Virus record (IMG/VR): IMGVR_UViG_3300019887_000002
Location: 1 to 53,257 of that record
Direction: 5' to 3' (one strand)
Source: a virus
Length of the DNA: 53,257 bases
A model generated the notes under the pieces. The model did not search any database. It was not told the DNA's origin and saw nothing but the letters and a program-made list of their open reading frames with translations. This document shows, one piece after another, positions 18,700 to 49,860 of the stretch. The stretch's first letter is position 1. Each line of letters begins with the position of its first letter. The position numbers and the translations under genes were made by a program.

Positions 18700-20877
18700 G
18701 TGCTGGTACCAAAAGTCGGGCTGTTCTTGAAGTTCGTTCTGGGAGACGCACAGGGAGTCCTGTGCGTCTCCCGACGTCCTGCAGGAACGAAACAGTTTGA
18801 AGAGGAATACTTCAACTACCCGGGAGAGATCAAGGCTACTCTTGAGTGGCTAGCCGCCTCGGAAAGAGGTTACGATCTATACTTCTGCCCAAATTTACTC
18901 GCTGGCAACAAGCGTGACAAGGCTAGTGTCCTTTCATGCGGATGTGCTTGGGCGGATCTCGATTCGTGTAAGCCAGAGAACATGCTAATTCCTCCTACCA
19001 TTGTCGTTGAAACTTCTCCCCAGAGATACCAAGGGTACTGGGTGTTCGATGAAGCTGTCGAACCTGCAGTAGCAGAGGACATCTCCAGACGCATTGCTTA
19101 CTACCATGCAGAACAGGGAGCAGACAAGAGTGGTTGGGATCTATCACAACTGCTTCGGATCCCATACTCGTACAACTACAAGTACGGTAACAACCCAGCA
19201 GCCATTCAGATTAGGAAGGCAACCAACGAGCATTACACTCCCGACTCCTTCTCAGTCTATCCACAGGCCGAGGGGTTTGAGTACACGGAGATTCCGTTTC
19301 CAACTGAATGGCCTCAGGAAGATGCAGATGCAACTCTGCAGAAACATCGTACACACTTTCATCCACGAGTCTGGGACCTATACAATACGGTGCCTGACGA
19401 GCACAAGTGGTCGACAGCACTCTGGCAACTAGAGATGTTGTTGTTCGAAGGTGGAATGGTTCGTGAGGAAGTGTTCATAGTTGCCAAGGCTGCAAAGTGT
19501 AACAAGTACGAACGGGATGGCAGATCAGACAAGCTCCTGTGGAAAGATGTATGTAGGGCGTGGGCAAGGGCAGTTGAGAAGACAAAAGCTATTGCCTTCG
19601 GTCAGTATGATCCGCCTCACGAACAAATGTTAACGGACGGAGAACGAGAATGGGTAACTTCGAACCTGAGCATCGTGGAACGTTACATATCGTGGGCTCG
19701 CCAACTTGGCGACGCTGCATGGCAGTATCATCAGGCAGGTGCTTTCATTACATTGTCCTCGCTATTAGCAGGTTCAGTTCGACTTCCTACATCCTATGGG
19801 ATGATGGTACCGAATTTGTGGTTTATGATTTTAGCGGATACAACTCTCACGCGGAAGACTACGGCGATGGACATCTCCGTCGATTTGTTGACAGAGATCG
19901 ACCCAGATATAGTGCTGGCGACGGATGGGAGTATCGAGGGCTTGATGACGTCATTGTCTATGCGTCCGGGTCAACCATCTTTGTTCTTACGGGATGAGTT
20001 CTCCGGCTTACTATCTGCTATGGAGCACAAGGACTACATGTCAGGTATGGCTGAGATGTTCACTAAGTTGTACGACGGTAAGTTCCAAAAGCGGGTACTC
20101 CGGAAGGAGATCATCGAGGTACGCGACCCCAGATTGATCCTGTTCGCAGGAGGTATCAAGACTCGCGTACAAGACATCTTGACGTACGAACAGGTTGCAT
20201 CCGGGTTCATTCCAAGATTCATCATTGTCAGTGCAGAAGCTGACATCGCTGCACTGAAGCCTCTAGGACCCCCAAGTGAACGATCGAACCTTGAACGTGC
20301 GAAGCTACTCTTTGAACTAACTAAGATCAAGAATCACTACTGCCAGACGACCGAAGTCAAAGTTGGTATGAAGGTCTTCCGTCAACCGAAGCAGTGGGAC
20401 GCACGGCTCACCGAAGAAGCGTGGGCGTTGTACAACAAGTACGAAACAACTACACTTGCAATAGCAAACAGAGCAGGACGTAAAGATGTCTTGACACCTA
20501 CAATGGACAGACTCTGCAAGAGTGGTCTGAAGTGTGCAGTCATCTTGGCTGCTGTCAGACATCTTGGTGACCAGATTGTTGTAGAGGAGCAAGACCTTGT
20601 ACGTGCATTCTACTACGTCGAACAGTGGAGAGGTTTCGCTACTGATTTGATTCAGAACATCGGTAAGTCGATCCAGGAGAGAGGATTGGAACAGATTGAG
20701 AGAGCTATAGTCAGATCACCCGGTGTAATGCGTAGTACATTGATGCAGTACTTCCATCTGACGGCAAGAGATACTGACATGGTACTCCAGACCCTAGAGC
20801 AACGTGGAACTATTTCTCGTGTCAAGAATGGTAGGTCAGAGACTTTGTGGCCAAGCAAACTACAGGAGGTCAAGTGA
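18700..20877 (+). CDS. Primase-helicase (AEP + DUF3987-like)
   Basis: 725 aa, GTG start four bases after the SSB stop. N-terminal archaeo-eukaryotic/RepB-type primase: GYDLYFCPNLLAGNKRDKAS and catalytic ADLD (85-88), then VVETSPQRYQGYWVFDEAV. Middle: DUF3987-like helicase ATPase with a degenerate P-loop ADTTLTRKTT (379-388; Lys and Thr kept, both glycines lost), LFLRDEFSG as Walker B, and a GASGFI-like VASGFIPRFI. C-terminal winged helix (RSPGVMRSTLMQYFHL, GTISRVKNGRSETLW). It should unwind the fork and lay primers for the polymerase at 24946. Confidence 0.85.
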   Translation: MLVPKVGLFLKFVLGDAQGVLCVSRRPAGTKQFEEEYFNYPGEIKATLEWLAASERGYDLYFCPNLLAGNKRDKASVLSCGCAWADLDSCKPENMLIPPTIVVETSPQRYQGYWVFDEAVEPAVAEDISRRIAYYHAEQGADKSGWDLSQLLRIPYSYNYKYGNNPAAIQIRKATNEHYTPDSFSVYPQAEGFEYTEIPFPTEWPQEDADATLQKHRTHFHPRVWDLYNTVPDEHKWSTALWQLEMLLFEGGMVREEVFIVAKAAKCNKYERDGRSDKLLWKDVCRAWARAVEKTKAIAFGQYDPPHEQMLTDGEREWVTSNLSIVERYISWARQLGDAAWQYHQAGAFITLSSLLAGSVRLPTSYGMMVPNLWFMILADTTLTRKTTAMDISVDLLTEIDPDIVLATDGSIEGLMTSLSMRPGQPSLFLRDEFSGLLSAMEHKDYMSGMAEMFTKLYDGKFQKRVLRKEIIEVRDPRLILFAGGIKTRVQDILTYEQVASGFIPRFIIVSAEADIAALKPLGPPSERSNLERAKLLFELTKIKNHYCQTTEVKVGMKVFRQPKQWDARLTEEAWALYNKYETTTLAIANRAGRKDVLTPTMDRLCKSGLKCAVILAAVRHLGDQIVVEEQDLVRAFYYVEQWRGFATDLIQNIGKSIQERGLEQIERAIVRSPGVMRSTLMQYFHLTARDTDMVLQTLEQRGTISRVKNGRSETLWPSKLQEVK

Positions 20878-21635
20878 CACAGACCCAGCGGACGTTCGCT
20901 CACCCTTCCGATCCTAAAGCAGTCGTCCTCCTCAGTGGAGGACTCGACAGTACCGTCCTCGCATACATGATGTCGGAGAAGTACAACTGTCACTTCCTCT
21001 CGTTCAACTACGGACAGCGACACAGCAAGGAAATCCTATACGCTGGGCAGACGGCTCGTCGGTTGGGCTCTCCTCACAACGTCATTGACTTGACGTCGCT
21101 AGGCCTCCTGTTGAAAGGCTCTGCACTGTCTGACCCCAACGTGGCTGTTCCAGAAGGCCACTACTCAGCAGACAACATGGCGATCACGGTTGTGCCCAAC
21201 CGCAATGCAACTATGCTCTCGTGTGCCACTGCTGTTGCCGTTGCAGAGAAAGCTTCCGTCGTCGCTTTCGCACCTCACTTTGGTGACTACCAGCAGTACC
21301 CTGATTGCAGGACTCGATTCGTTGACCGCCTCCAAGAGGCTCTGACGATCGGCAACGAGGGATTCATGCTTGGAGGTTTCCGTATCGAGGCACCCTTCAT
21401 TGCTATGTCAAAGGCGGACATCGTCACAATTGGTGAGAACCTTAAGGTTCCCTTCGCAAGTACCTGGAGTTGCTACAAAGGCGGAAGCGTTCACTGCGGT
21501 CGGTGTGGAACTTGTGTGGAGAGAGCAGAAGCATTCTGGGAAGCGCAAGTTGCAGATCCGACAACGTACGCCGACAACGAGTACTGGAGTCAAGTGACAG
21601 GTAAGTGGCCGATCATTCTTGGAGGATCCAAATGA
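20874..21635 (+). CDS. queC: 7-cyano-7-deazaguanine synthase QueC
   Basis: Converts CDG to preQ0 with ATP and ammonia. GTG 20874 is chosen over 20847 because ACAGGAGG sits just before it and it overlaps the primase stop. 253 aa, normal length. PP-loop SGGLDST (21-27), FNYGQRHSKEI, VPNRNA, and the zinc site Cys200, Cys208, Cys211, Cys214 (SCYKGGSVHCGRCGTC). First of four precursor-pathway genes. No amidotransferase domain is fused, unlike Gat-QueC of archaeosine-making phages. Confidence 0.95.
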   Translation: MTQTQRTFAHPSDPKAVVLLSGGLDSTVLAYMMSEKYNCHFLSFNYGQRHSKEILYAGQTARRLGSPHNVIDLTSLGLLLKGSALSDPNVAVPEGHYSADNMAITVVPNRNATMLSCATAVAVAEKASVVAFAPHFGDYQQYPDCRTRFVDRLQEALTIGNEGFMLGGFRIEAPFIAMSKADIVTIGENLKVPFASTWSCYKGGSVHCGRCGTCVERAEAFWEAQVADPTTYADNEYWSQVTGKWPIILGGSK

Positions 21636-22075
21636 CGATTGAAGTCGGTTCCATTCGTGTAATGCATAACGTGGAGATGGCTCACCGTCTCACGAAGACA
21701 CCTGGTAGGTGCCAGAACATCCATGGCCACAGTTGGAAGGTGATCCTCACACTAACTGGGGAGATCGACGAGAAGGGTGTACTAGTCGAGTTCGGTTACC
21801 TCAAGATGGCGTTCCGTGACTTCCTCAACACGAACTTCGATCACCACCTCCTACTCAACTGGACTGATCCAATGTTCAGGAATGTAATGCTAGAAGGTGC
21901 TCTCCTACCAGGTGCCACTCAAATGGAAGGAGAACCTACAACCGAGAACTTCGCCAAGCTCATCTACGACTGGGCTGTACAAGAGTTGATCGGCAAGATC
22001 GGGAACGTATATAGTGCACGAGTTGAAGTCTGGGAGACTGCAACAAACTGTGCTGTGTACCCTGCGGAGGGATGA
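21632..22075 (+). CDS. queD: 6-carboxytetrahydropterin synthase QueD
   Basis: Turns dihydroneopterin triphosphate into CPH4. ATG overlaps the queC stop (ATGA) after GGAGGATCC. 147 aa. Zinc ligands His18, His31 and His33 (AHRL, HGHSW), catalytic Cys27 (PGRCQNIHGH), FDHHLLL with Asp70/His71, and the C-terminal VEVWET glutamate. The substrate is the FolE product made by the enzyme encoded 1.2 kb downstream. Confidence 0.95.
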   Translation: MTIEVGSIRVMHNVEMAHRLTKTPGRCQNIHGHSWKVILTLTGEIDEKGVLVEFGYLKMAFRDFLNTNFDHHLLLNWTDPMFRNVMLEGALLPGATQMEGEPTTENFAKLIYDWAVQELIGKIGNVYSARVEVWETATNCAVYPAEG

Positions 22076-22076
22076 C

Positions 22077-22313
22077 ATGGCTAGAGTGTACGAGTTGATA
22101 CCAGGAGACAGAGTGAAGGTAGTGAGTATGTCAGGTACCTTCATAGCATCGTGTGACCACCCTCTCTTCGATGGTTTCATGTTGGTCATCTGGAGAATGG
22201 AAGATGGTACGTGGAGTCACGATGCTCTCCTCGCAACACAAGAGGTTGGTGAAGTTGTTCCAAACGAGGATCGGGTTGCAAACCTTCAACAGGCACTACT
22301 GAGGAGAGTTTGA
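22077..22313 (+). CDS. Hypothetical 78-aa protein in que operon
   Basis: ATG one base after queD, with CGGAGGGATG. Beta-rich, SH3-like pattern: RVYELIPGDRVKVVSMSGTFI, FMLVIWRMEDGTWSHDALL. No catalytic motif. Its place between queD and queE suggests a pathway accessory or a simple insertion; I do not recognise it. Confidence 0.65.
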   Translation: MARVYELIPGDRVKVVSMSGTFIASCDHPLFDGFMLVIWRMEDGTWSHDALLATQEVGEVVPNEDRVANLQQALLRRV

Positions 22314-23087
22314 ATGGAAGGCAATCGAGCATTCAAGAGAGGACACCTTCGTGTAAGTGGAGATGGCATCTTCTACACACTTCAAGGGGAAGGGATCACA
22401 CAAGGTATTCCAGCTATCTTCCTCCGTCTACACGAGTGCAACCTGAAGTGCAAGTGGGGCGAAACGATTTGTGACGCCTCGTACACGTGGGACAAGTCTG
22501 ACAACAGGTACTGGCAGGAGTCTCTAGACGTTCCTATGGAGTCTCTTACCCAAGACTTGTGGAAAGCAATGCAAGGTCACAACTGCTACAGAATCGTGAT
22601 CACAGGTGGCGAACCAATGATGCAGCGAGGAGCACTGGACACTCTGCTTCAAAATCTCTTCAGCCGGTTACCGACACCCTTTGGGAAGATTTGGGTAGAG
22701 TTTGAAACCAACGGGACGATTGCTCCCACCAAATTCATGGTAGAGAGCGCTAACAGGTACTTGGTTCAATTCAACGTCTCTCCAAAGTTGGCAACGTCAG
22801 GTAACGGTTCCTGGCGGGCACTCAAACCTGAAGTGTTGAAGGAGTACGCAGAAACAAACTCCTGGTTCAAGTTCGTGGTGGACGATGTCTTCGACGAGGA
22901 TGAGATCGTGGACATCGTGGAACAGGTACACTTGAATCCTATGCGTGTCATCCTCATGCCTCAGGGCGTTGATCCGATGACTCTGTGGAAGAACCAGCAG
23001 TTGTGTGCAGAGATCGCTATGAAGCGTGGATGGCGAATGACAACTCGTCTACAGATCGCTCTCTGGGGGAATACTCGTGGCACCTAA
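22314..23087 (+). CDS. queE: 7-carboxy-7-deazaguanine synthase QueE
   Basis: Radical-SAM enzyme that rearranges CPH4 to CDG. 257 aa, ATG directly after the previous stop. Substrate-binding TLQGEG, glycine-rich TGGEPM, EFETNGT and FNVSPK motifs are all present, as is the CDxxYTWD segment. The cluster motif reads C-N-L-K-C-KWGETI-C (CX3CX6C), with four residues more than the canonical CX3CX2C between second and third Cys. Other family motifs are intact, so it is probably active with an altered cluster loop. Confidence 0.9.
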   Translation: MEGNRAFKRGHLRVSGDGIFYTLQGEGITQGIPAIFLRLHECNLKCKWGETICDASYTWDKSDNRYWQESLDVPMESLTQDLWKAMQGHNCYRIVITGGEPMMQRGALDTLLQNLFSRLPTPFGKIWVEFETNGTIAPTKFMVESANRYLVQFNVSPKLATSGNGSWRALKPEVLKEYAETNSWFKFVVDDVFDEDEIVDIVEQVHLNPMRVILMPQGVDPMTLWKNQQLCAEIAMKRGWRMTTRLQIALWGNTRGT

Positions 23088-23253
23088 CCTTGGGCTAGCA
23101 ACAACTCGCGAACTCCTAACAGAACTTGCTGTGCGTATGGAAGTTACGCAGAACAGTACTAACGGTCGAGCTCTCGGACGACTGTGCCGAAATGCTCTGG
23201 AGCATCTCGCAAAAAACGTACTGGACTATCGGACAGTTAGTTCGGAGGGTTAG
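23077..23253 (+). CDS. Hypothetical 58-aa helical protein
   Basis: GTG inside the last codons of queE, after GGGGGAA; stop is followed at once by the folE ATG. All-helical (TRELLTELAVRMEVTQN, ALGRLCRNALEHLAKNVLDY). The tight overlap on both sides supports a real gene. Function unknown. Confidence 0.6.
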   Translation: MAPNLGLATTRELLTELAVRMEVTQNSTNGRALGRLCRNALEHLAKNVLDYRTVSSEG

Positions 23254-23823
23254 ATGGCAGAGTCATACCAACGTAGATTGACAGTACCTATGGCCGCAGA
23301 ACTCCTCAGGCGCTTATTGCCTGATGAGAACTGGGAAGACGAACATCTAAGGAGGACACCAGAACGCTTCGTGCAGATGTTGCATGAGCTTACAGACAGG
23401 ACACCGCATGAGTTCGACTTCACGATCTTCCCGAACGACGGGATTGACGAGATGGTCGTCGTTCAAGACATACCGTTCCGCTCACTATGTGCCCATCACT
23501 TGTTGCCATTCATCGGTGTGGCCCACATCGCATACATCCCAGACAAGAAGGTCGCGGGCCTGTCGAAGCTCCCACGCACTGTGCAGTACTGGTCGGCTGG
23601 GTTGTGGAGCCAAGAACGGCTGACAGAGAAGATCACCAGGTACCTAGAGGAGATGTTGGAACCGGTAGGCGTCGCGGTCGTCATGAAAGCGGAACACATG
23701 TGTATGTCACTCAGGGGTGCACAGGCACATGGCACTAAGACAACGACATCTAAAATGCTTGGAGTGTTCCTCGATCCATCTCGAGGTGCTCGACAGGAGT
23801 TCCTCAATCTGATTTCACATTAG
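23254..23823 (+). CDS. folE: GTP cyclohydrolase I
   Basis: First step of the deazaguanine route: GTP to dihydroneopterin triphosphate. 189 aa, ATG immediately after the upstream stop. Zinc ligands Cys79, His82 and Cys150 (CAHHLLPF and HMCMSLRG), plus IPDKKVAGLSKL and the TRTKTTTS-like HGTKTTTS end. Normal length for the type IA family. It makes the phage independent of host folate flux for DNA modification. Confidence 0.95.
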   Translation: MAESYQRRLTVPMAAELLRRLLPDENWEDEHLRRTPERFVQMLHELTDRTPHEFDFTIFPNDGIDEMVVVQDIPFRSLCAHHLLPFIGVAHIAYIPDKKVAGLSKLPRTVQYWSAGLWSQERLTEKITRYLEEMLEPVGVAVVMKAEHMCMSLRGAQAHGTKTTTSKMLGVFLDPSRGARQEFLNLISH

Positions 23824-23825
23824 GA

Positions 23826-23860
23826 CCCTCTTGATTTGGGACTAACTCCAGATATATAAT
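23826..23860 (+). promoter_or_regulatory. Promoter, TTGATT-18-TATAAT
   Basis: TTGATT (23831-23836), TATAAT (23855-23860), 18 bp. CCC-TC-TTGATT-T-GGG is the exact consensus of the clamp family. It lies right after folE and drives the dpdA-polymerase unit. Confidence 0.8.
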
Positions 23861-23880
23861 TAGAACATAGGAGGGAAGCT

Positions 23881-24216
23881 GTGAGGAAAGCGTTGACAAT
23901 GTTGCAAGATGACACTGAGTGGAATGACAGTTTCATTCAGGAGATGGCTAACCGTATGGCTGTCGGCCGTCATAGGTACGGAAGTATCTACGGTCCTGAG
24001 CACGTAGGTCGTGACATGATCCGAGCTATGCGCAGCCGGATTACTCACTACGAGGAAACAGGCAACACAGAAGTGCTCCGGGATATTGCTAACTTCGCGA
24101 TGATCGAAGCATCAGTTCCTCATCATCCGAAAGCACACTTCAAACCACTCGAGCATGAAGATACGCCCCCTGTGTATCGTGACGGCAAGCCCTGGACTTT
24201 GGAGAGCGAACGATGA
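23881..24216 (+). CDS. Hypothetical 111-aa helical protein
   Basis: GTG after TAGGAGGGAAG, 20 nt past the promoter. Helical: FIQEMANRMAVGRHRYGSIY, RDMIRAMRSRITHYEETGNTEVLRDIANFAMIEA. The paired helices with a DxxN-like end recall MazG-type nucleotide pyrophosphohydrolases, but the metal-binding ExxE pair is not clear, so this is weak. Between folE and dpdA; a nucleotide-pool role would fit. ATGA overlap with dpdA. Confidence 0.6.
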   Translation: MRKALTMLQDDTEWNDSFIQEMANRMAVGRHRYGSIYGPEHVGRDMIRAMRSRITHYEETGNTEVLRDIANFAMIEASVPHHPKAHFKPLEHEDTPPVYRDGKPWTLESER

Positions 24217-24959
24217 AGCTCGCAATCATCAGTCCTAACAGTCTGCTGGACAGGTATAGTCAGACGGACTACCACCTGATCCTTCCTGACATGCTCAAGG
24301 ACCCGGAGTACTACAGGTTCTACCACTCAGTTGCTAGGGGTTGGAAGGTACTAGACAACGGTGCACACGAAGAAGGAACGCGTTCACCTAACGAACTGTT
24401 CAGGATCGCTGAGATACTCCAAGTGGATGAGATCGTTGTACCTGATGTCATCGGTGACAGAGGTACCACTCTTGATATGGCAGCTAGCTTTGAGCCGCAT
24501 GCTTACGAGGCAAATCCACGGTATCAATACATGGGAGTCGTTCAAGGTTCATCTGCTGGTGAGGCGTGGGAGTGTCTCAGAGAGCTGACGGACTACTTCC
24601 CATGGATTAAGTCCATTGGTATTCCCCAACACCTCTGTAGGTTCGACCAACACATCCGTGTCGAGATGGCTGAAACAATCGATCAGTGGATGGGGCATCA
24701 GGTACACCTACTCGGCAACAATAGTAGGTGGCCTAGAGAGGTTAAGCACTTGTCGGATCTCAAATGCGTCGTTGGACATGACACGACGTACCCTGTCAAG
24801 ATGGGTCTGAGAGGCTACTACATCAGTGATAGGGAAGTACCAAACGTCCCAAGAGACCCCGACTACTTCGAGTTCTACCGAGATGTTGTTGAATTGCAAG
24901 ACTACGTCATCAAGGAGAACATTCGTGTCTACAAGTCCTGGTGCGATGGAACAACGTAG
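24213..24959 (+). CDS. dpdA: DNA 7-deazaguanine transglycosylase DpdA
   Basis: TGT-like base-exchange enzyme of the phage DpdA type; it swaps guanine in DNA for preQ0 or a derivative. 248 aa, ATG overlaps the previous stop. TGT-fold signatures: LDNGAHEEG (47-55), catalytic-Asp region VVPDVIGD (75-82), YMGVVQG (106-112) and SIGIPQHL. No zinc-binding domain of tRNA TGTs, which fits a DNA enzyme. With queC/D/E and folE it completes a dPreQ0 pathway. No QueF-like or amidotransferase step was seen. Confidence 0.85.
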   Translation: MKLAIISPNSLLDRYSQTDYHLILPDMLKDPEYYRFYHSVARGWKVLDNGAHEEGTRSPNELFRIAEILQVDEIVVPDVIGDRGTTLDMAASFEPHAYEANPRYQYMGVVQGSSAGEAWECLRELTDYFPWIKSIGIPQHLCRFDQHIRVEMAETIDQWMGHQVHLLGNNSRWPREVKHLSDLKCVVGHDTTYPVKMGLRGYYISDREVPNVPRDPDYFEFYRDVVELQDYVIKENIRVYKSWCDGTT

Positions 24960-27267
24960 ACATCCGCTCGCACTATGTGAGTCCTGTCCACTCAACACGG
25001 AGGAGTCTGTTTATGTCCCTTCAGACGGGCCCGACAGAGCCGAACTCGTCATCATCGGAGAAGCTCCCGGACGAGATGAAGCAAGGAGAGGACGACCCTT
25101 CACTGGACAGTCGGGCAAACTCCTTGATACAGTTCTTGCGCACAACAAACTGGAACGTTCCAGAATATTTGTCACGAATACGGTTCTCTGCAGAGACAAA
25201 GAGAATCGTACTCCAACAGCCACGGAGATCGGATGCTGCCTTCCCCGACTCATCGCCGAGGTCAAGAGCAGAAGCCCAAGCACTATACTTGCACTTGGTA
25301 ACTCAGCTGCGAAGACGATCCTCCGAACCACTGACGGAGTTACCAAGCTCCGAGTTGGACAAGGACACGAGTCCCCACTCTTTCCCGGAGTAAAGGTCAT
25401 AGCAACATTCCACCCAGCAGCAACAATGCGTCAGCCCGGAGCCTTCCCATCGATGGTAACTGACTTCGCGAAGGTCAGAGTCAAGGGAGACGTACGATGG
25501 ATCGATCCTGAGATCAGCATCGTGAACAATCCTGACAACGCCAATGTAGTACTTGACGCACTAGCAACCAAGCCCCGTATCACTATCGATATCGAAACAG
25601 GCAAAGAGAAGGACGAGGACTTCGACAGACCTGAGAACCTTCTCTGTGTCGGTTTCAGTTATCGTCCAGGGGCTGTAGTTGTCATCGGAGAGAGAGCCTT
25701 ACAGCATCCAGGAGTGAAGCAGCATCTAGTTGACATGCTCAACAGGCATCCTCACATTGGAGCACAGAATGGTAAGTCAGACCTCGGATGGCTTCGAGCA
25801 GGTACTCTTGCCTTCGACACAATGCTTGCATCGTATGCATGTGATGAGAGGAAGGGTATTCATAGCCTGGAATATCAAGGTACAGAACACCTCGGTGCTC
25901 CGAATTGGAAGGCAGAGTTCAAACGGAAACTTCGTACCAAGACCGACTACGGCAGTTGTTCTCGAGACGATCTCTACATCTACAACGGACAGGATTGTGT
26001 TGGAACTTGGTTGCTCGAAGACTATTGGGAGGCCCGACTTAGAGCTGAGGGTCTTACAGGACTTCATGAACACCTGGTGAATGTAAGCAACACACTCATG
26101 CCTGTGGAGCAAGAAGGTGTGAAGCTCGATCTGGCGTACAACCTTAGGTTACAGGCTGAGTACGATGAACTACTTGCCAGACTGATGATGAGCCTTAACA
26201 GGTGGATCGACAACCCAAGGTCGTGGCAACAGATCAAGAGAGCCCTCCTGGAACTACACGTACAGGTAGACAACACTCAAGCGGAAGAGATCCAAGCAGC
26301 CCTCGAGATGGCTATAGGACCTGAAGGTAACCAACTCGATCCTGTCGACAGAGCACAAGTCATCGAACTATGTACAGACCTACTAGAGTACAAGAAACAA
26401 TTCAAACAGGAGTCGACATATGTCAGAGGAATCCGGGAACGACTCGATCGCAACGGACGCATCTACGCCTCCTTCCTCATCCACGGCACAACCCATGGAC
26501 GACTTTCTTCTCGCAATCCGAACCTTCAGAACATTACTCGAGGGGACCGCATTCGAGGTCAGTTCGTCCCTGAAGAGGGTAACCTTTTCGTTCAGGCTGA
26601 CTATCGGACCATCGAGCTCCGAACACTAGCAGTTGAGTCAGGAGATGCTTATCTGTTCAGTGTACTGTCGGACCTTGAACGAGACATTCACAATGAGACA
26701 GGTGCTAGGTTCTATCACGACTTCTGGGATGTCACACCAGCAGCACGGAAGGAACGTCGCATCAGAGCCAAGGCTGTTGTGTTCGGACTCCCATACGGAC
26801 GTACTGCGTTCAGTGTAGCAGAAGAGTACGGACTAGCACCTCAAGTTGCAGAAGCTTACTACCGAGAGTTCTTCGGACTTATCCCTGGAGTAGTTGAATT
26901 CCAAAAGAGAGTCAAGCTCGACGTGTTGAGTGGCAAGGATCTCATAACACCTTTCGGAAGGCATCATCGGGTTCCTCTCATCACACCACAGAACCGCAAG
27001 GATGTAATCAAAGAGGCGTACTCGTTCTACCCTCAAAGCATTGCGAACGACATCAACCTGCATGCCATGATCAGATTGGTCAATGCAGGTGTGCACGTTC
27101 GCATTCCAGTACACGACTCATTGCTGGCAGAGTTCAGAGCAGAGGACGCTAAAGAAGGTGCACAGTTTATGAAGGAGACAATGGAACAGACAGCAGCAGA
27201 CGTGTACAACAAAGAGATGCCATTTCCTGTAGATGTAGAAATTGGTCCGAACTGGGGTGCAGTATGA
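24946..27267 (+). CDS. UDG-DNA polymerase A fusion
   Basis: 773 aa from the ATG inside the end of dpdA. Residues 1-180: family 4-type Fe-S uracil-DNA glycosylase with Cys11, Cys14, Cys82 and Cys97/98, motif GEAPG (38-42) and HPAA (156-159). Residues ~210-360: 3'-5' exonuclease with DIET (215-218), NGKSD (275-279) and YNGQD (346-350). Residues ~380-773: family A polymerase, motif A ADYRTIEL (551-558), motif B RAKAVVFGLPYG, motif C VHDS (722-725; usual HDE has Ser for Glu). No 5' nuclease. Replicative polymerase with uracil-removal arm; acting in cis on dU in template or pool is inference. Confidence 0.9.
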   Translation: MEQRRHPLALCESCPLNTEESVYVPSDGPDRAELVIIGEAPGRDEARRGRPFTGQSGKLLDTVLAHNKLERSRIFVTNTVLCRDKENRTPTATEIGCCLPRLIAEVKSRSPSTILALGNSAAKTILRTTDGVTKLRVGQGHESPLFPGVKVIATFHPAATMRQPGAFPSMVTDFAKVRVKGDVRWIDPEISIVNNPDNANVVLDALATKPRITIDIETGKEKDEDFDRPENLLCVGFSYRPGAVVVIGERALQHPGVKQHLVDMLNRHPHIGAQNGKSDLGWLRAGTLAFDTMLASYACDERKGIHSLEYQGTEHLGAPNWKAEFKRKLRTKTDYGSCSRDDLYIYNGQDCVGTWLLEDYWEARLRAEGLTGLHEHLVNVSNTLMPVEQEGVKLDLAYNLRLQAEYDELLARLMMSLNRWIDNPRSWQQIKRALLELHVQVDNTQAEEIQAALEMAIGPEGNQLDPVDRAQVIELCTDLLEYKKQFKQESTYVRGIRERLDRNGRIYASFLIHGTTHGRLSSRNPNLQNITRGDRIRGQFVPEEGNLFVQADYRTIELRTLAVESGDAYLFSVLSDLERDIHNETGARFYHDFWDVTPAARKERRIRAKAVVFGLPYGRTAFSVAEEYGLAPQVAEAYYREFFGLIPGVVEFQKRVKLDVLSGKDLITPFGRHHRVPLITPQNRKDVIKEAYSFYPQSIANDINLHAMIRLVNAGVHVRIPVHDSLLAEFRAEDAKEGAQFMKETMEQTAADVYNKEMPFPVDVEIGPNWGAV

Positions 27268-27422: not shown

Positions 27423-27640
27423 AGTGTTCGAAGTGTAACAACCAGGCACGACGAAACAGCGAGTTCTGTTTCGATTGTGGACCGAAGAAGATAGCAACCA
27501 AGAGACACCGTAACCCGAGAAGGTACAGGCCTATTGAACAGGATAGGAGGCGGGCACCAGAGACACCTGTACCTATGATCGATCCACTTGTACCAAAGAT
27601 CATCGACAAACAGTTCCTACTAGGAAAGAGGCCGATATGA
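27419..27640 (+). CDS. Zinc-ribbon protein, 73 aa
   Basis: ATG overlaps the previous stop; a GTG four codons upstream is too close to the ribosome site. CSKCNNQARRNSEFCFDCG is a complete four-Cys ribbon at the N-terminus; the rest is basic and Pro-rich (KRHRNPRRYRPIEQDRRR). Nucleic-acid binding is likely. ATGA overlap with the next gene. Confidence 0.65.
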   Translation: MKCSKCNNQARRNSEFCFDCGPKKIATKRHRNPRRYRPIEQDRRRAPETPVPMIDPLVPKIIDKQFLLGKRPI

Positions 27641-28194
27641 GAATACTCAGGACACTTGTAGCTGGCACGATCATACTTGTTGGAGTTGCTACTGTTTCAA
27701 CATTAAAGATGGGCATCGATACATCACGCAACGTACCACCATCAGCCATTGCAATGATAGGTCCTGTTGCTCCTGGACCAACCGACAACCGAATCACACA
27801 AGCAAACATCCACGAGACCATCTGTACAAGTGGATGGACCAAAAAGGTTCGTCCAAACTCTATGTACACAGGTTTCGTCAAGAAACTAGAAATGGGCAAC
27901 GGAGGCGATGTTCCGTCTCCTGCAGCAGCCGGACGGATGTACCACGTAGTTGGCACTCATCTCAACCAACCTCTGAGCCTGTACGAACTGGATCACAACG
28001 TTCCACTCGAGTTGGGAGGTAACCCTGAGGACCCGATCAATCTCAAGCTCCAGATTTGGGATGGCCCTGATGGTGCTCACCTAAAGGACCATGCAGAGAA
28101 CAAAGTGCACGCTCTCGTGTGTAGCGGAGCAATGAGACTTGTAGATGGTCAGCAAGTGTTCCTGTCAGATAATTGGAAGCCGTACGCGAACTAA
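27637..28194 (+). CDS. Exported or membrane-tethered HNH-like protein
   Basis: 185 aa. N-terminal hydrophobic segment (LVAGTIILVGVATVSTL) acts as signal or anchor. The domain resembles secreted bacterial HNH proteins: ITQANIHETICTSGWTKKVR, YELDHNVPLELGG (Asp119-His120) and DPINL, with VENALH-like AENKVHALVCSG. Two Cys could pair. The catalytic His and the Asn of HNH are visible. A nuclease sited outside the membrane could attack incoming DNA or act on released host DNA; this is inference. Confidence 0.75.
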   Translation: MRILRTLVAGTIILVGVATVSTLKMGIDTSRNVPPSAIAMIGPVAPGPTDNRITQANIHETICTSGWTKKVRPNSMYTGFVKKLEMGNGGDVPSPAAAGRMYHVVGTHLNQPLSLYELDHNVPLELGGNPEDPINLKLQIWDGPDGAHLKDHAENKVHALVCSGAMRLVDGQQVFLSDNWKPYAN

Positions 28195-28792: not shown

Positions 28793-29287
28793 ATGCAAGT
28801 TGTAGTCGCCTTTGACCCAGGAGGCACAACCGGAATGACAGTTGCTCGGAAGAAAGATCCAGGACGTAGGGTCTCTGGAGAATGGACTTGGGAGTTCTAC
28901 GAACTAGGTCCATCACAGCATCACGCAATACTCTGGCGTGATCTCAACCATCTCAACGTTCTGATCCCAAAGAGCGTCGACCTAACAGTAGTGTGTGAGT
29001 CCTTCGACCATAGAGCCAACGAAGCAGCTGAACTGATCTCGTGCGAGTACATCGGCATCATCGTCCTGTGGTGTACTGTTAAGGAAGTGCGCCTAGTAAT
29101 GCAGACACCTTCCGAGGCAAAGAACTTCTGGACAGATAACAAACTCAAGCACCTGGGTCTCTACCACCCAACTAAAGGCGACCACTCGAACGATGCTACC
29201 AGACATGCACTCCGCTTTATCACACAGTGGAGAGACAAGACGTTCATCTACCAACTGAAAGGAATCAACGGTGCCTCGGCTGTTTGA
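28793..29287 (+). CDS. RuvC-like Holliday junction resolvase
   Basis: 164 aa, ATG after GAGAGGAGG. RNase H-fold nuclease: Asp8 in AFDPGGTTG, Glu69 in VVCESF, and Asp131/Asp135 in GDHSNDATRHAL give the acidic metal site. Cuts branched DNA made by replication or recombination so that it can be packaged. Overlaps the terminase-like gene by 17 nt, which implies joint production. Confidence 0.75.
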   Translation: MQVVVAFDPGGTTGMTVARKKDPGRRVSGEWTWEFYELGPSQHHAILWRDLNHLNVLIPKSVDLTVVCESFDHRANEAAELISCEYIGIIVLWCTVKEVRLVMQTPSEAKNFWTDNKLKHLGLYHPTKGDHSNDATRHALRFITQWRDKTFIYQLKGINGASAV

Positions 29288-30752
29288 AACAGGTGTCGGA
29301 CTAACTACCCCTCTCGATCAACTACAGGATGCAGCTCACAAGGCAGCACGCATCTGGAGGAACAACGCACGAGTTGACCAACGGATGCCTCCTGGAGACT
29401 GGAGAGTTTGGCTCATCGTCGGTGACAGAGGTTCTGGGAAGACATATGCTGAGACACTAGCAGCCTTGGCCGCTCTTGACGGGCCTAAGAGGAACATTGG
29501 TTTCGTCGCTCCATCCTTGAGTGCTGCCAAGATGGTTAACTTGGACGGAGAGTCAGGCATCTTGGCAGCAGTCGGTGGTGAAGAGAACGTTGGTAAGGTC
29601 ATCAGAGGACAGAATGATGTCTACTGCATCTTCAACAATGGCAGTCAGATTGAGTTCCGCTCCTCTGCCAGTCCTGAGAGCATACGAGGTAGGAACTGGG
29701 ACCTCTGTATCTGGGATGAAGTCATTGCAGCGAAGCACCCACTTGCAACCTGGCAACAGATCCAAGCTGCTACACGCAAAGGTCGCGCCCGTGTGGTGAT
29801 TGGTACTTCATGGGACGCTGATCACCCAGACAAAGGCAAGCCTCGGTACGAGGAAGCCAAAGCAGTTCTCTCCAGCATCCTGAAGCGAGAAGGTAGTGGA
29901 GTTATTGTCACGTTCATGAAGTCGTCCGACAACACTGCACTCTCCAAGGAGTGGCTAAAGGAGAACATTGGACACACGGACCTCGACAACCTTCTCAACG
30001 TCGACCCAAGCGCCGGCTTCTTCCGCTCCCCTATGTTTCAATACCACAGGGCGATGGAGGATAGGATTGAACTTGGAGACAAGAAGGTTAGGTACGGAAG
30101 GCTCTATCGCTTCGTTGTCGTACATCCTGTGATGCAGGACGACTCTCCGTGTATCCTCCTACATATCGGGACGTTCAAGAGTCACGGGAAGAGGTACATA
30201 GTCATCTTGGATGAGATCCGAGAATACATGCCTGCTGCGATGGCAGTCGAACGTGGACGAGAGGTTATGAAGACCCTCAAAGCCAACTACGTCCTGTACG
30301 ATGCAGCACACTACTTCGGACCTCCAGAGACGGATCCACGCTTCAGGTTGATCAAGGTACCACCTCCCCCTCATACAGCCTTCCCGGTACAGAAGGCCCT
30401 AGCCGAAGGTAGGTTGTGGTTACAACCAGAGATGAAAGAGGACCTGCTCGCATACGTACCTGAAGGTATAGAGTCTAAGAGGGCTGACAGAGTGATCGCC
30501 TTGTCTCTTGCAACAACTGAGGTTGACGCACTCGACTATAGGAAGACACCTCCAAGAGTACGGCCCGTGTGGTTCAGGATCTTGAAGTGGCTAGGGGTAG
30601 CGTACTTGACTTACAACTTCTTCATCTTCTCGTTCATCCTGATGCTCCTCCTACTACCGTTCGACTTCATTGCAATACTCCTACTCATTAGGATGAGGAA
30701 GAGGAAGAAGGCAGAAGTTGAGAAGCGGATGAAGACGATGGGATTGATCTAA
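29271..30752 (+). CDS. Terminase-like ATPase with membrane tail
   Basis: 493 aa, GTG start. Terminase-type motor domain: Walker A GDRGSGKT (51-58), GFVAPSLSAAKMV, IEFRSSASPESIRG and Walker B LCIWDE (145-150), then the coupling-like VIGTSWD. The RNase H-like part is degenerate: the usual first Asp motif reads VVVHPVM, though YVLYDAAH and RADRVIALSLAT are kept. Residues ~440-473 form a hydrophobic hairpin (FFIFSFILMLLLLPF, then FIAILLLI) followed by a basic tail (RMRKRKK). A second, late-strand TerL exists, so this one may be a membrane-bound DNA motor. Confidence 0.75.
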   Translation: MPRLFETGVGLTTPLDQLQDAAHKAARIWRNNARVDQRMPPGDWRVWLIVGDRGSGKTYAETLAALAALDGPKRNIGFVAPSLSAAKMVNLDGESGILAAVGGEENVGKVIRGQNDVYCIFNNGSQIEFRSSASPESIRGRNWDLCIWDEVIAAKHPLATWQQIQAATRKGRARVVIGTSWDADHPDKGKPRYEEAKAVLSSILKREGSGVIVTFMKSSDNTALSKEWLKENIGHTDLDNLLNVDPSAGFFRSPMFQYHRAMEDRIELGDKKVRYGRLYRFVVVHPVMQDDSPCILLHIGTFKSHGKRYIVILDEIREYMPAAMAVERGREVMKTLKANYVLYDAAHYFGPPETDPRFRLIKVPPPPHTAFPVQKALAEGRLWLQPEMKEDLLAYVPEGIESKRADRVIALSLATTEVDALDYRKTPPRVRPVWFRILKWLGVAYLTYNFFIFSFILMLLLLPFDFIAILLLIRMRKRKKAEVEKRMKTMGLI

Positions 30753-31378
30753 CGCTTACGTGGACGGCCTCTCCCACGACTGGAACTACGTCGTCTAACC
30801 CTATGATGCGTTGCGTAGTACCTCTTAAGGCTAGCTTTGATCTTTGCTTTGGTCACTGCTGAGAGATGCCTACCTTTAAGGGCCGCACTAATCTTTGCTC
30901 GTGTCGTCGTACTAACTGTACGACCCTTTAGTGCGGCACTAATCTTGGCCCGCGTAGCTGCAGACACTTGACGGCCTTTCAAGGCAGCACTGATCTTTGC
31001 TCGTGTGGCTGCTGACTCGATCCTGCCCTTAAGAGCTGCACTGATCTTAGCTCTGGAGGCTGCAGAAATAGTACGACCCTTGAGTGCTGCAGATATCTTT
31101 GCACGAGCTGCCGGACTTAAAGTCCGTCCCTTGTTAGCTGCTGCAATCTTTGCTCGTGTAGCTGCAGAGACTACCCTGCCTTTGTTTGCAGCAGATATCT
31201 TTGCTCTCGTTGCCGCAGACATTGGGTGGCCTGGATGGTGTCTACCTTTGAGAGCAGCACTAATTTTGGCTCGTGCTGCAGGAGATAGAGGTCGGTGCTT
31301 CCTGCCTTTGTTAGCGGCACTGATCCTTGCCTTAGTGACTGCTGAGAGGTGTCGTCCAGTCTTGTGAATGTAGGGCAC
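30749..31378 (-). CDS. NUMOD3 repeat array with AT-hook
   Basis: 209 aa, GTG directly after the previous stop, AAAAGG upstream. Ten copies of a 16-18-residue unit of the form SAATRAKISAALKGR, the NUMOD3 DNA-binding motif normally fused in ones to threes to GIY-YIG or HNH nucleases. No nuclease domain is present. The tail (RVRRRSSSRGRGRPRKR) contains an AT-hook core GRPRK. Highly basic throughout. Last gene of the late operon; its stop overlaps the convergent plus-strand stop by 4 nt. Most likely condenses or coats DNA. Confidence 0.8.
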   Translation of the reverse strand: MPYIHKTGRHLSAVTKARISAANKGRKHRPLSPAARAKISAALKGRHHPGHPMSAATRAKISAANKGRVVSAATRAKIAAANKGRTLSPAARAKISAALKGRTISAASRAKISAALKGRIESAATRAKISAALKGRQVSAATRAKISAALKGRTVSTTTRAKISAALKGRHLSAVTKAKIKASLKRYYATHHRVRRRSSSRGRGRPRKR

Positions 31379-46503: not shown

Positions 46504-46937
46504 TAGCTCGCCCTATAGAATCCTGCAGCAGCGAACTGGACGGTTAGGTCACTCGCGTCTGTGGTAACAACGAAGTCATGAGCAGTAAGGGGAATTCGAG
46601 TGGTATCTGCTGCAGCCTCCTCATAGAACACGATCAGCTTCGCTGTTGTGTTGTTCGTTGCTCCTCCAGCAACCGTCCACGTCTGATTTGGTACAGACAC
46701 ATCAACGCGGTCGTTTGTATTGTCAACTGTCACGGTGCCAGTAAGACCTGTTTTCCGAGCATAGTTGGTGAAGTCCGCTTCAGTTGAACCCGACAGTACA
46801 GCAGTGAGTGTTGCACGATCACGCATGAGGGCATCAGACTCAACTGTCTTGAGGATCATCACCCCTAAGTTGGTAGCCGTGTCACGCACCTTCTCAGCTG
46901 ACGCACCCTTTGCAATGTTGAACACAAAATCTGCCAT
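46503..46937 (-). CDS. Hypothetical 144-aa virion-region protein
   Basis: ATG after GGAGGGATA. FVFNIAKGASAEKVRDTATN then two beta sections (LTGTVTVDNTNDRVDVSVPN, NTTAKLIVFYEEAAADTTRI). The pattern is that of small structural proteins seen after the portal in actinophages; a likely partner of the repeat fibre. Function unproven. Confidence 0.6.
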   Translation of the reverse strand: MADFVFNIAKGASAEKVRDTATNLGVMILKTVESDALMRDRATLTAVLSGSTEADFTNYARKTGLTGTVTVDNTNDRVDVSVPNQTWTVAGGATNNTTAKLIVFYEEAAADTTRIPLTAHDFVVTTDASDLTVQFAAAGFYRAS

Positions 46938-48439
46938 TATCCCTCCTGACTAGGATTCGACTTGCCCGAATTATCTGCACCAGCATTCTTACCAGGTAGA
47001 CCTTTGTTCATGTTGCCTGCCTGAGATTGTCTTGGCAACTCAGGAGCAGGAGCACCAGGCAACTGAGGAGCAGTGACCATCCGTTTGGTAGCAACGTCCT
47101 TACGAGGCAAGTCCATCTCTTCACGTGACCATGTCTCAAGAGGATCATCAGGCTCTATAATACCTGCACCGATCAAGTTCCTGAGTGCGAAACTGATCGT
47201 TCTCCAGTCGATAGTATCGCCAAGTCGGCGGCACTTCAGCTTCGGGAAGTCGATAATGTTCGCCCCAAAGTTGTACTGCACCAACTGAGGAATACCATAC
47301 GAGTTGAAAACATCAGCAACCTGATCAGCAACGAACCTAACTGACTTCAGGAAGAGTTCCTGATCTGCTGTAACAGCAGTTCCTCCTCGTGTCATGTCAA
47401 GGAAGGGAGCCAAGATGTTTTTGGCGATCTCCATGTCATGGTGTTCGATGGATCGCATGATGTCAACAGGTTGTCCCTCCATCTTCAACATGATGATATC
47501 CCAATTAGGAGGGAGAATGATATGGGCCTTCTCATTCGTACGAAGGTTACGGCCCATCTCATCAGCAAGTTTCCTGTCTGCTTCCGAGAAGTTCGGTGGA
47601 AGGTGGATAACAGGAATCCCAATGCCATGACGTTCCTTTTGGATAGCATCGATCTTGTACAAGTTATCCTTGTAGAACCAGTGCTTGTACGCCGTACGAA
47701 GGACAGACGTACCCTGAATGTTCCCTGACTCTTTCTCGAACGTGAACACCAACAACTTTGAGATGTCAATATCAACAGGTTGATACAGTTGTGGACCGTA
47801 AATCCACAACGTTTGTGGTCCTCCATGCAGATCGAAGTCCCACCTGTACACATCGAGAGGATGTCTCGGAGCCAACTTGCCCCAAACATACTTGCCGTCT
47901 CCAGCAGGACTGGGCACCCAGACCTTCTCGAACATGTAGTACCCGAAGTCCAACATGAGGAGAGCTTCCCGAAGTTGCTGTGGCCAAGAGACCGTCTGCC
48001 ACTTCGTCAGACAGTTCCAACAGAACTCTGCAATCTTCTTGTCACGAAGTTTGTCAGAAGCTGGGTCCATATACCAACGTGCAGCAACAACAGGAGTCTT
48101 GACAAGGTTTAGAGTACCCCGAATCTGCCCGTCACTCTTACGCATCTGCTCGTAGACACGCAGACCTCGGATACCACGAAGTTCAGGGTTGTAATCCTCT
48201 CGGATCAAACGGCTATAGGTCGTCGTACCAGAAACAGCAGCAGCTCCGATTTCACCTGTTGGTGGTTTCTCTACATACTTCTGAGTCACAATCAAAGCAC
48301 CGCCCGATACCCCAATCGGGTCGTAGTCTGCAAACAACTGTTGGAAGTCTGTCGTCTCCAGAGTCCGCACAGCCCCATTGCTCTCGACCACAGGCCCCGA
48401 TGATTCAGGTTCGTCGAACTCATTCCAAAGTTCTGGCAT
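46937..48439 (-). CDS. Portal protein, Mu-like DUF935
   Basis: 500 aa. Dodecameric ring at the capsid vertex. RGLRVYEQMRKSDGQIRGTL, LLMLDFGYYMFEKVW, QKERHGIGIPVIHLPPNFSE and MEIAKNILAPFLDMTRGGTA are DUF935 (Mu gp29-like) hallmarks. A Pro/Gln-rich tail (PQLPGAPAPELPRQSQAGNM) follows the core. Starts one base into the TerL stop. Confidence 0.9.
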   Translation of the reverse strand: MPELWNEFDEPESSGPVVESNGAVRTLETTDFQQLFADYDPIGVSGGALIVTQKYVEKPPTGEIGAAAVSGTTTYSRLIREDYNPELRGIRGLRVYEQMRKSDGQIRGTLNLVKTPVVAARWYMDPASDKLRDKKIAEFCWNCLTKWQTVSWPQQLREALLMLDFGYYMFEKVWVPSPAGDGKYVWGKLAPRHPLDVYRWDFDLHGGPQTLWIYGPQLYQPVDIDISKLLVFTFEKESGNIQGTSVLRTAYKHWFYKDNLYKIDAIQKERHGIGIPVIHLPPNFSEADRKLADEMGRNLRTNEKAHIILPPNWDIIMLKMEGQPVDIMRSIEHHDMEIAKNILAPFLDMTRGGTAVTADQELFLKSVRFVADQVADVFNSYGIPQLVQYNFGANIIDFPKLKCRRLGDTIDWRTISFALRNLIGAGIIEPDDPLETWSREEMDLPRKDVATKRMVTAPQLPGAPAPELPRQSQAGNMNKGLPGKNAGADNSGKSNPSQEG

Positions 48440-49860
48440 TAGAACATCTTTCCGGTAGTGAAGTAGCCTGCTTCGGGCAAAGACAACTCTGAACCGTCGT
48501 CAGCTTCTGGTGTCCAAACCTCATTAAGGTGATGCTGCGCTCCGAGTACGAACAAACTCATGAGTGCGTAGCGGAGGGCATCAAGTGCGTTGTCTTCTTG
48601 ACCCATCCGCTTAACGGGCCCTGCCGCGTTCGACTCTGGCTGATTCCTATCTTCATCCGGACCTTTGTAGTTGATGAACTCCCGAATCGTGTTAGGACAA
48701 CTCCAGTCGACAAACAACATAGGTAGGAGTTCAGGCGTCCCATATTCATCGACAGTTCTACCGGTGTCATACCTCTTCAGGAACCTCTTAAGATTGTCGA
48801 CACCTTGACGCCAATTCACCTTAGCATCAGGGTCAACGATGCATGGTGCGAGGTACTGAGACACTGTTGCAGCCGCTTCAGGGTCTGCAGCGTCACCAAA
48901 GCAGCAGTCGATCTTGTACCCTGGAGGCTGTTCTCGTGCTTTCATCTCATCGATGTGGTCTCGAAGTTGCTTGTACGACTTGTAGTGCTCTCTCCAGACG
49001 GTAATGTTGTCCCATGGATCTACTTGGAACTCAATTGCAGCTAGAGGATGTACGAAACCCCAATCGAAGGCGATGTAGTTGGGCCATGCGGGGTTGTATT
49101 TGCACGTCCTGATGTGTACATTCTCGTCAAACTCCGCGTAGATCCTGCCTACGAAGCTGGCGAAGTCTGCCGCGATCTCCTGTGAGAAGAGATCCTTATC
49201 CATAGCCATCTCGAGGGAAAGGATCTCTGGGTCCTGACGTCCTCCCGGGTAGATAGCACGGTTCTCCCAGGAAGGGAAGTGGAAGGAAGCGTACTCCTCA
49301 TTTTCCGGGTTCAGACCGAGTTTGTACAGATCGTAGAACCAGTTGTGGCCTTCAGGAGTTGAAGCGAAGTCAGCAACACCCCTCTTGTCAGAAAGGGCAG
49401 GACGTAGAAACCGTTGGAAAGTACTTGCTCTGTGCTTAGCTGCCTCTGCAACGATCACTGAGTCTAACCCTTCGCCGACGAGTGTGTCCGGATACTTCGC
49501 TGACTTCACTTCAAGCCTAGTTCCCCAAGGCATCTGAATGTACATCTCACCTTGACGAGTGTTGTACGACTTCTTAACGCGCTTGTCTTGACCTAATTTC
49601 TGTCCTACGATAAGATCGTTCCAGATGTACCTGAATTCCTTCTCGCCTTCGTCGTACTCTCGGCCTACGATCCAGTGCCAAGTATCGGGCTTGAAGAGCC
49701 TCATCTCCATGTCTCTCGCGACCATTGTAGTCTTGCCAAAACGGCGCCCGCACGCTGCGACGCGGAACCGTGCCGTGTTGTTGTGATACCTCCACTGCTG
49801 TGTGTGAGGATTGTATCCGATCTTCTCGAAGTACTTTGCCCTGTCGATTAGCAGTCCCAT
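48439..49860 (-). CDS. terL: Terminase large subunit
   Basis: 473 aa. DNA-packaging motor and nuclease. Walker A GRRFGKTT (38-45), Walker B SVIVAEA, RNase H-type nuclease with AFDWGF, CFGDAADPEAA and DNALDALRYAL. Placed directly before the portal gene. Complete motif set, unlike the membrane-tailed ATPase at 29271, so this is the packaging enzyme. Confidence 0.9.
   Translation of the reverse strand: MGLLIDRAKYFEKIGYNPHTQQWRYHNNTARFRVAACGRRFGKTTMVARDMEMRLFKPDTWHWIVGREYDEGEKEFRYIWNDLIVGQKLGQDKRVKKSYNTRQGEMYIQMPWGTRLEVKSAKYPDTLVGEGLDSVIVAEAAKHRASTFQRFLRPALSDKRGVADFASTPEGHNWFYDLYKLGLNPENEEYASFHFPSWENRAIYPGGRQDPEILSLEMAMDKDLFSQEIAADFASFVGRIYAEFDENVHIRTCKYNPAWPNYIAFDWGFVHPLAAIEFQVDPWDNITVWREHYKSYKQLRDHIDEMKAREQPPGYKIDCCFGDAADPEAAATVSQYLAPCIVDPDAKVNWRQGVDNLKRFLKRYDTGRTVDEYGTPELLPMLFVDWSCPNTIREFINYKGPDEDRNQPESNAAGPVKRMGQEDNALDALRYALMSLFVLGAQHHLNEVWTPEADDGSELSLPEAGYFTTGKMF

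Follow-up and report, generated by a model that had tools for sequence, protein, structure and literature searches.

Few phage proteins are as conserved as TerL, of which each genome is usually taken to have one. TerLs of the HK97/actinophage-like type (Terminase_6N, phrog_2), such as those of Bacteriophage sp. MW462191, Arthrobacter phage Tank and Microbacterium phage RubyRalph, consist of an ATPase followed by an RNase H/RuvC-like nuclease, and they carry Walker A and Walker B motifs, a Q..PP.GDW.W motif and the arginine of an LRG motif. Cleavage by the TerL of G20c depends strictly on each of its nuclease metal ligands, D294, D347 and D429 (PMC5389553), and in the TerL of D6E a C-terminal arm that comes after the nuclease domain has been proposed to mediate portal docking (PMC5727402). 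Extra TerL ATPases without a nuclease are already known in annotated phages: Microbacterium phages Cece (gp63, gp64) and Big4 (gp68, gp69) encode a complete TerL and two ATPase-only terminase genes ahead of a small membrane protein and the portal, and Caulobacter phage RW, with its extra ATPase gp97, has three TerL-like stretches; no study of such nuclease-less ATPases was found in the literature searched. In both Cece and Big4 the complete TerL is a single open frame that gave a two-piece profile match, and an intein-like insert follows its Walker A region. Phage PDS1 was rejected as a parallel because its "two large terminase genes" are split domains of one terminase. Membrane-tied ATPases that act on double-stranded DNA are also represented by the FtsK/HerA translocases. 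In FtsK, the membrane part lies at the N-terminus and crosses the membrane several times.

The window, which is the whole 53,257-nucleotide stretch of soil phage DNA that was analysed, encodes two TerL-type proteins, referred to below as the late TerL and the second TerL. The relevant features are:

28793..29287, + strand: RuvC-like resolvase, conserved in the clade, overlapping the second TerL gene by 17 nt
29258..29263, + strand: AAAGGA, a ribosome-binding-like site 7 nt 5' of the GTG, within the end of the RuvC-like gene (sequence)
29271..30752, + strand: second TerL-type protein, 493 aa, GTG start (ORF, profile matches, AlphaFold2 model)
30749..31378, - strand: NUMOD3-repeat protein, convergent, overlapping the end of the second TerL gene by 4 nt
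46937..48439: portal of the Mu/P23-45 type (profiles)
48439..49860, - strand: packaging TerL, intact, adjoining the portal (profiles, alignment with relatives)

By profile searches and an AlphaFold2 model, the product of 29271-30752 is a full two-domain TerL. Pfam Terminase_6N (3.8e-9) and phrog_2 (1.6e-13) matched it better than all other families, and an earlier note that had placed a second terminase-type ATPase here was correct in its coordinates, frame and start (GTG at 29271, stop codon at 30750-30752). The gene lies at the end of the replication block, approximately 16 kb from the portal and outside the packaging block, and its codon usage is normal across 493 open codons, those of the tail included. 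The AlphaFold2 model was built with 58 sequences and had a mean pLDDT of 80.8, with most of the ATPase core above 90. Its ATPase half matched the TerL of P74-26 (Z 17.5, 3.2 A over 198 residues), and its nuclease half (residues 247-419) matched the nuclease of the G20c TerL (Z 13.1, 2.9 A over 150 residues), indicating that an RNase H/RuvC-like fold is present in the model. The whole body (residues 31-423) matched the D6E TerL with a Z of 19.8 and a high rmsd, as is expected if the two domains differ in orientation.

Across the relatives that were fetched, the late TerL retains Walker A, the Glu of Walker B and each of the three nuclease ligands. At the position of the Walker B Asp, the late TerL and its relatives carry A, S or C (AEAA, SEAA, CEAA). 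Since the late TerL is complete, conserved and located beside the portal, it is likely the packaging motor, and the presence of this separate, intact TerL makes it very unlikely that the second TerL packages DNA. Both conclusions agree with the earlier note, which had recognized a complete TerL in the late block and had argued against a packaging role for the protein encoded at 29271-30752.

The catalytic residues of the second TerL were compared by alignment with 102 TerL relatives and with a second set of 141 relatives that overlaps the first; both sets are samples drawn from among the matches listed. The residues concerned are:

29421..29444, + strand: Walker A GDRGSGKT, residues 51-58, with R53, K57 and T58 retained (two alignments)
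29685..29687, + strand: R139, at the position of the LRG motif's conserved Arg, which is R in 138 of 141 relatives (two alignments)
29706..29720, + strand: Walker B CIWDE, residues 146-150, with D149 and E150 retained (two alignments)
30123..30125, + strand: H285 (CAT), replacing the Asp that is nuclease metal ligand 1 (alignments; ligand role from PMC5389553)
30300..30302, + strand: D344, replacing the family Glu at ligand position 2 and still acidic (two alignments)
30495..30497, + strand: I409 (ATC), replacing the Asp that is nuclease metal ligand 3 (alignments)

Both Walker motifs are intact, as had been noticed before, and the Q..PP.GDW.W motif and the LRG arginine are retained. The loss of the first nuclease ligand, read previously from the stretch VVVHPVM, was borne out by the alignments, in which 98 of the 99 relatives with a residue at position 285 have D (139 D, 1 E and 1 gap in the overlapping set). 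A second loss had been missed: position 409 is D in 98 of 98 relatives (136 D, 1 I and 4 gaps in the overlapping set), and the lone I belongs to a protein that terminates at that motif. Position 344 is E in 93 of 99 relatives (139 E and 2 gaps in the overlapping set), so that D344 is the sole acidic residue at the three ligand positions of the second TerL. The family stretches around the ligands, NxGGD and RGKxxRAEPV, are also lost. Because two of the three positions that correspond to the indispensable ligands of G20c are changed, cutting should be abolished, and the nuclease of the second TerL is predicted to be dead. Of 15 conserved nuclease positions, the second TerL keeps 4, whereas every other relative compared keeps at least 11. 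In the ATPase domain 26 of 45 conserved positions are kept, mostly before residue 141; the later half of this domain is eroded, as most conserved positions past residue 140 differ, among them T178 and T180 in the coupling motif, where TTT has become G-T-S. The contrast in retention between the ATPase and nuclease domains is suggestive and not significant (Fisher p 0.07). Taken together, the alignments and the model predict a folded yet catalytically broken nuclease domain joined to an intact site for ATP binding and hydrolysis.

The body of the second TerL stops at approximately residue 430, where other TerLs end, and is followed by a tail with these features:

30567..30737, + strand: C-terminal extension, residues 433-489, predicted to be a single long helix, after the complete TerL body (alignment, AlphaFold2)
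30588..30689, + strand: hydrophobic membrane-type stretch, residues 440-473, broken by P463-F-D465 (hydropathy)
30696..30710, + strand: RKRKK basic stretch, residues 476-480 (sequence)

The best 19-residue Kyte-Doolittle mean of the tail is 2.92, and a value of 2.9 was reached by 1 of 2000 shuffles of the second TerL. By hydropathy the stretch at 440-473 is long enough to cross a bilayer, and it is followed by RMRKRKK; a membrane-type C-terminus with a basic tail, as described in the earlier note, is supported. The proposal that two hydrophobic segments form a hairpin was not supported, as one strong segment (approximately 440-462) is followed by PFD and then by about 8 apolar residues (466-473), which are too few for a clear second crossing, and residues 433-489 were modelled as one helix (pLDDT approximately 82-90, without homologues for the tail part). 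The tail may insert in the membrane as a single pass, a re-entrant segment or a hairpin; both flanks of the hydrophobic segment are basic, so charge leaves the topology undecided. No homologue among the relatives listed covers the tail, and a membrane tail is absent from approximately 140 relatives among the matches listed, in which the top hydropathy is 1.88. A frameshift origin of the tail was rejected, since the TerL body is complete ahead of it, frame +1 is rich in stops and codon usage in frame +2 is poor. Fusion of the small membrane protein found after TerL in actinophages (Kithara, Cece, RubyRalph, Tank) was also considered, but those proteins carry CxxC-like motifs and have no evident likeness to the tail. 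Another candidate for fusion, a small membrane protein that one relative encodes behind RuvC, showed no convincing likeness by eye.

In a tree of 101 TerLs, the second TerL is placed next to TerLs of the HK97/actinophage type, its terminal branch is very long (4.03 changes per site), and the late TerL lies on a well separated branch. The second TerL is from a lineage foreign to the phage, and duplication of the late TerL within this genome was rejected because the tree places the two far apart. Through its major capsid protein the phage is linked to many other phage contigs. The RuvC-like gene is present in 20 of 24 larger related records; the second TerL is in none of the 24, where searches by protein sequence, Pfam family and profile returned the late TerL only, and as these records are possibly incomplete the absence is probable rather than proven. 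The order polA, HNH, RuvC-like gene and convergent tail genes recurs in most of 12 regions fetched from relatives, and in these regions the RuvC-like gene ends the rightward block, with no TerL behind it in any of the 12. These data suggest that the second TerL is probably an accessory gene gained by insertion at the junction of two blocks. The earlier note had also proposed coupling to the RuvC-like resolvase: the 17-nt overlap is real; however, functional coupling is weakened by the conservation of a block-ending RuvC-like gene without a TerL behind it. The overlap most likely came with the insertion, and the coupling is probably a by-product of gene position.

The second TerL gene was found as a single copy. 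Peptide patterns revealed no close homologue in viral_contigs, one ordinary TerL in genome_contigs and ordinary TerL-like stretches only in plasmids, and two alignment-based scans gave approximately 140 ordinary packaging TerLs among the matches listed, none with a membrane tail. The earlier note had held that homologues serving as the sole terminase of their genomes would count against a role other than packaging, and all homologues listed are indeed ordinary packaging TerLs; however, they are approximately 22-28% identical overall to the second TerL, keep the catalytic Asp and are tailless. They indicate that no orthologous membrane-TerL family was found, and they are not evidence that the second TerL packages DNA.

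Compared to the HK97/actinophage-like TerLs, with which it shares its motifs, domain order and fold, the second TerL lacks two ligands and the surrounding family stretches, has gained a membrane-type helix, lies away from the portal and is not the sole TerL in its genome. Like the extra ATPases of Cece, Big4 and RW, it is an additional TerL-type ATPase, predicted to be without nuclease function, alongside a complete TerL, and in Cece and Big4 a small membrane protein comes after the extra ATPase genes. However, in those phages the nuclease domain of the extra ATPases is wholly absent, their genes are located within or close to the packaging block and they have no membrane tail, and the neighbouring membrane protein of Cece and Big4 is of another type. 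What is new in the second TerL is a nuclease fold that is retained although predicted dead, a membrane tail and a location in the replication block. The literature searched contained no report of a membrane-tailed TerL, and nothing relevant to a role as an Avs decoy.

Our preferred reading, put forward tentatively, is that the second TerL may be a repurposed accessory motor that docks on the cytoplasmic membrane and handles double-stranded DNA with ATP, without cutting. A TerL-type gene of foreign lineage would have been gained as an accessory gene and then repurposed, its C-terminal end carrying a membrane segment in place of a portal-docking arm; docked at the inner side of the membrane, the motor would bind or move double-stranded DNA there. 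The main structural argument for membrane docking is that the tail starts approximately where a portal-docking arm of the D6E type would be. As relatives seem to manage without the second TerL, its benefit would probably be conditional and not an essential step, for example in dealing with a rival or entering genome, or in keeping the phage's own genome at the membrane. Early expression is something we infer from gene position only, and DNA movement at the membrane is likewise something we infer. FtsK/HerA serves by analogy only, being a different family to which no sequence relation is claimed. Repurposing is disfavoured by the single copy, the very long branch, the eroded later half of the ATPase domain and the statistically insignificant retention contrast, and the more specific version, in which a packaging motor became a membrane-docked, non-cutting DNA pump, with a membrane anchor replacing the portal-docking end, that moves or holds DNA during infection, is doubtful.

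The long branch also fits a decaying relic, that is, a horizontally acquired TerL gene that is functionless and drifting, with a tail that arose by chance or is a captured membrane segment; so do the loss of two metal ligands and most nuclease signatures, the erosion of the coupling motif and linker, and the absence of the gene from all 24 relatives. We nonetheless regard a relic as unlikely, as 493 codons, tail included, remain open with normal usage, the gene has a ribosome-binding-like site and overlaps its upstream neighbour, both domains are modelled with good confidence, and all ATP-site residues are kept. In a possible role against competitors, a decoy would need neither the kept ATPase residues nor a membrane tail. 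By this account, a cutting-dead, membrane-held TerL of HK97/actinophage type would mix into the packaging motor of rival phages of that type or titrate the partners of that motor, yet would differ too much from the phage's own motor to poison it. Phage satellites are known to interfere with packaging, the second TerL and the phage's own motor are on different TerL branches, the nuclease of the second TerL appears dead by sequence and the gene is an accessory one found in one phage only; however, identity of approximately 22-28% to the TerLs found is low for co-assembly, and we consider this role quite improbable.

A further alternative keeps the second TerL within packaging, as the auxiliary part of a split-function terminase that partners the late TerL or the RuvC-like nuclease. 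The overlap of the RuvC-like gene with the second TerL gene, and the extra ATPase-only TerL-like genes in the packaging block of Cece and Big4, are consistent with such a partnership. It is, however, very unlikely: relatives apparently package DNA without a second TerL, the RuvC-like gene is conserved without one, the second TerL gene is in the replication block and distant from the portal, and a portal-docked motor has no evident place for a membrane tail. If the preferred reading of a repurposed membrane-docked motor is correct, the second TerL, its nuclease dead and its C-terminus membrane-type, would clearly exemplify the recruitment of a packaging motor to another job. It would also be a reminder that TerL-based phage counts and trees can include non-packaging copies.

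The neighbouring genes were also inspected. The convergent product of 30749-31378 (-) consists mostly of NUMOD3 repeats (Pfam 2.4e-30), and no nuclease domain was recognised in it. Upstream, 27637-28194 (+) encodes a 185-aa protein with a hydrophobic N-terminal segment and an HNH-like-looking stretch, DHNVPLELGGNPEDPINL, which had no match in Pfam or PHROG, and 24826-27267 (+) encodes a uracil-DNA-glycosylase-superfamily domain followed by a family A DNA polymerase in one reading frame. The genes at 20847-24959 (+) encode QueC, a QueD-like protein (PTPS), a QueE-like radical SAM protein, GTP cyclohydrolase I and a protein that, from reading alone, is possibly DpdA-like; this region is likely a 7-deazaguanine DNA modification cassette.
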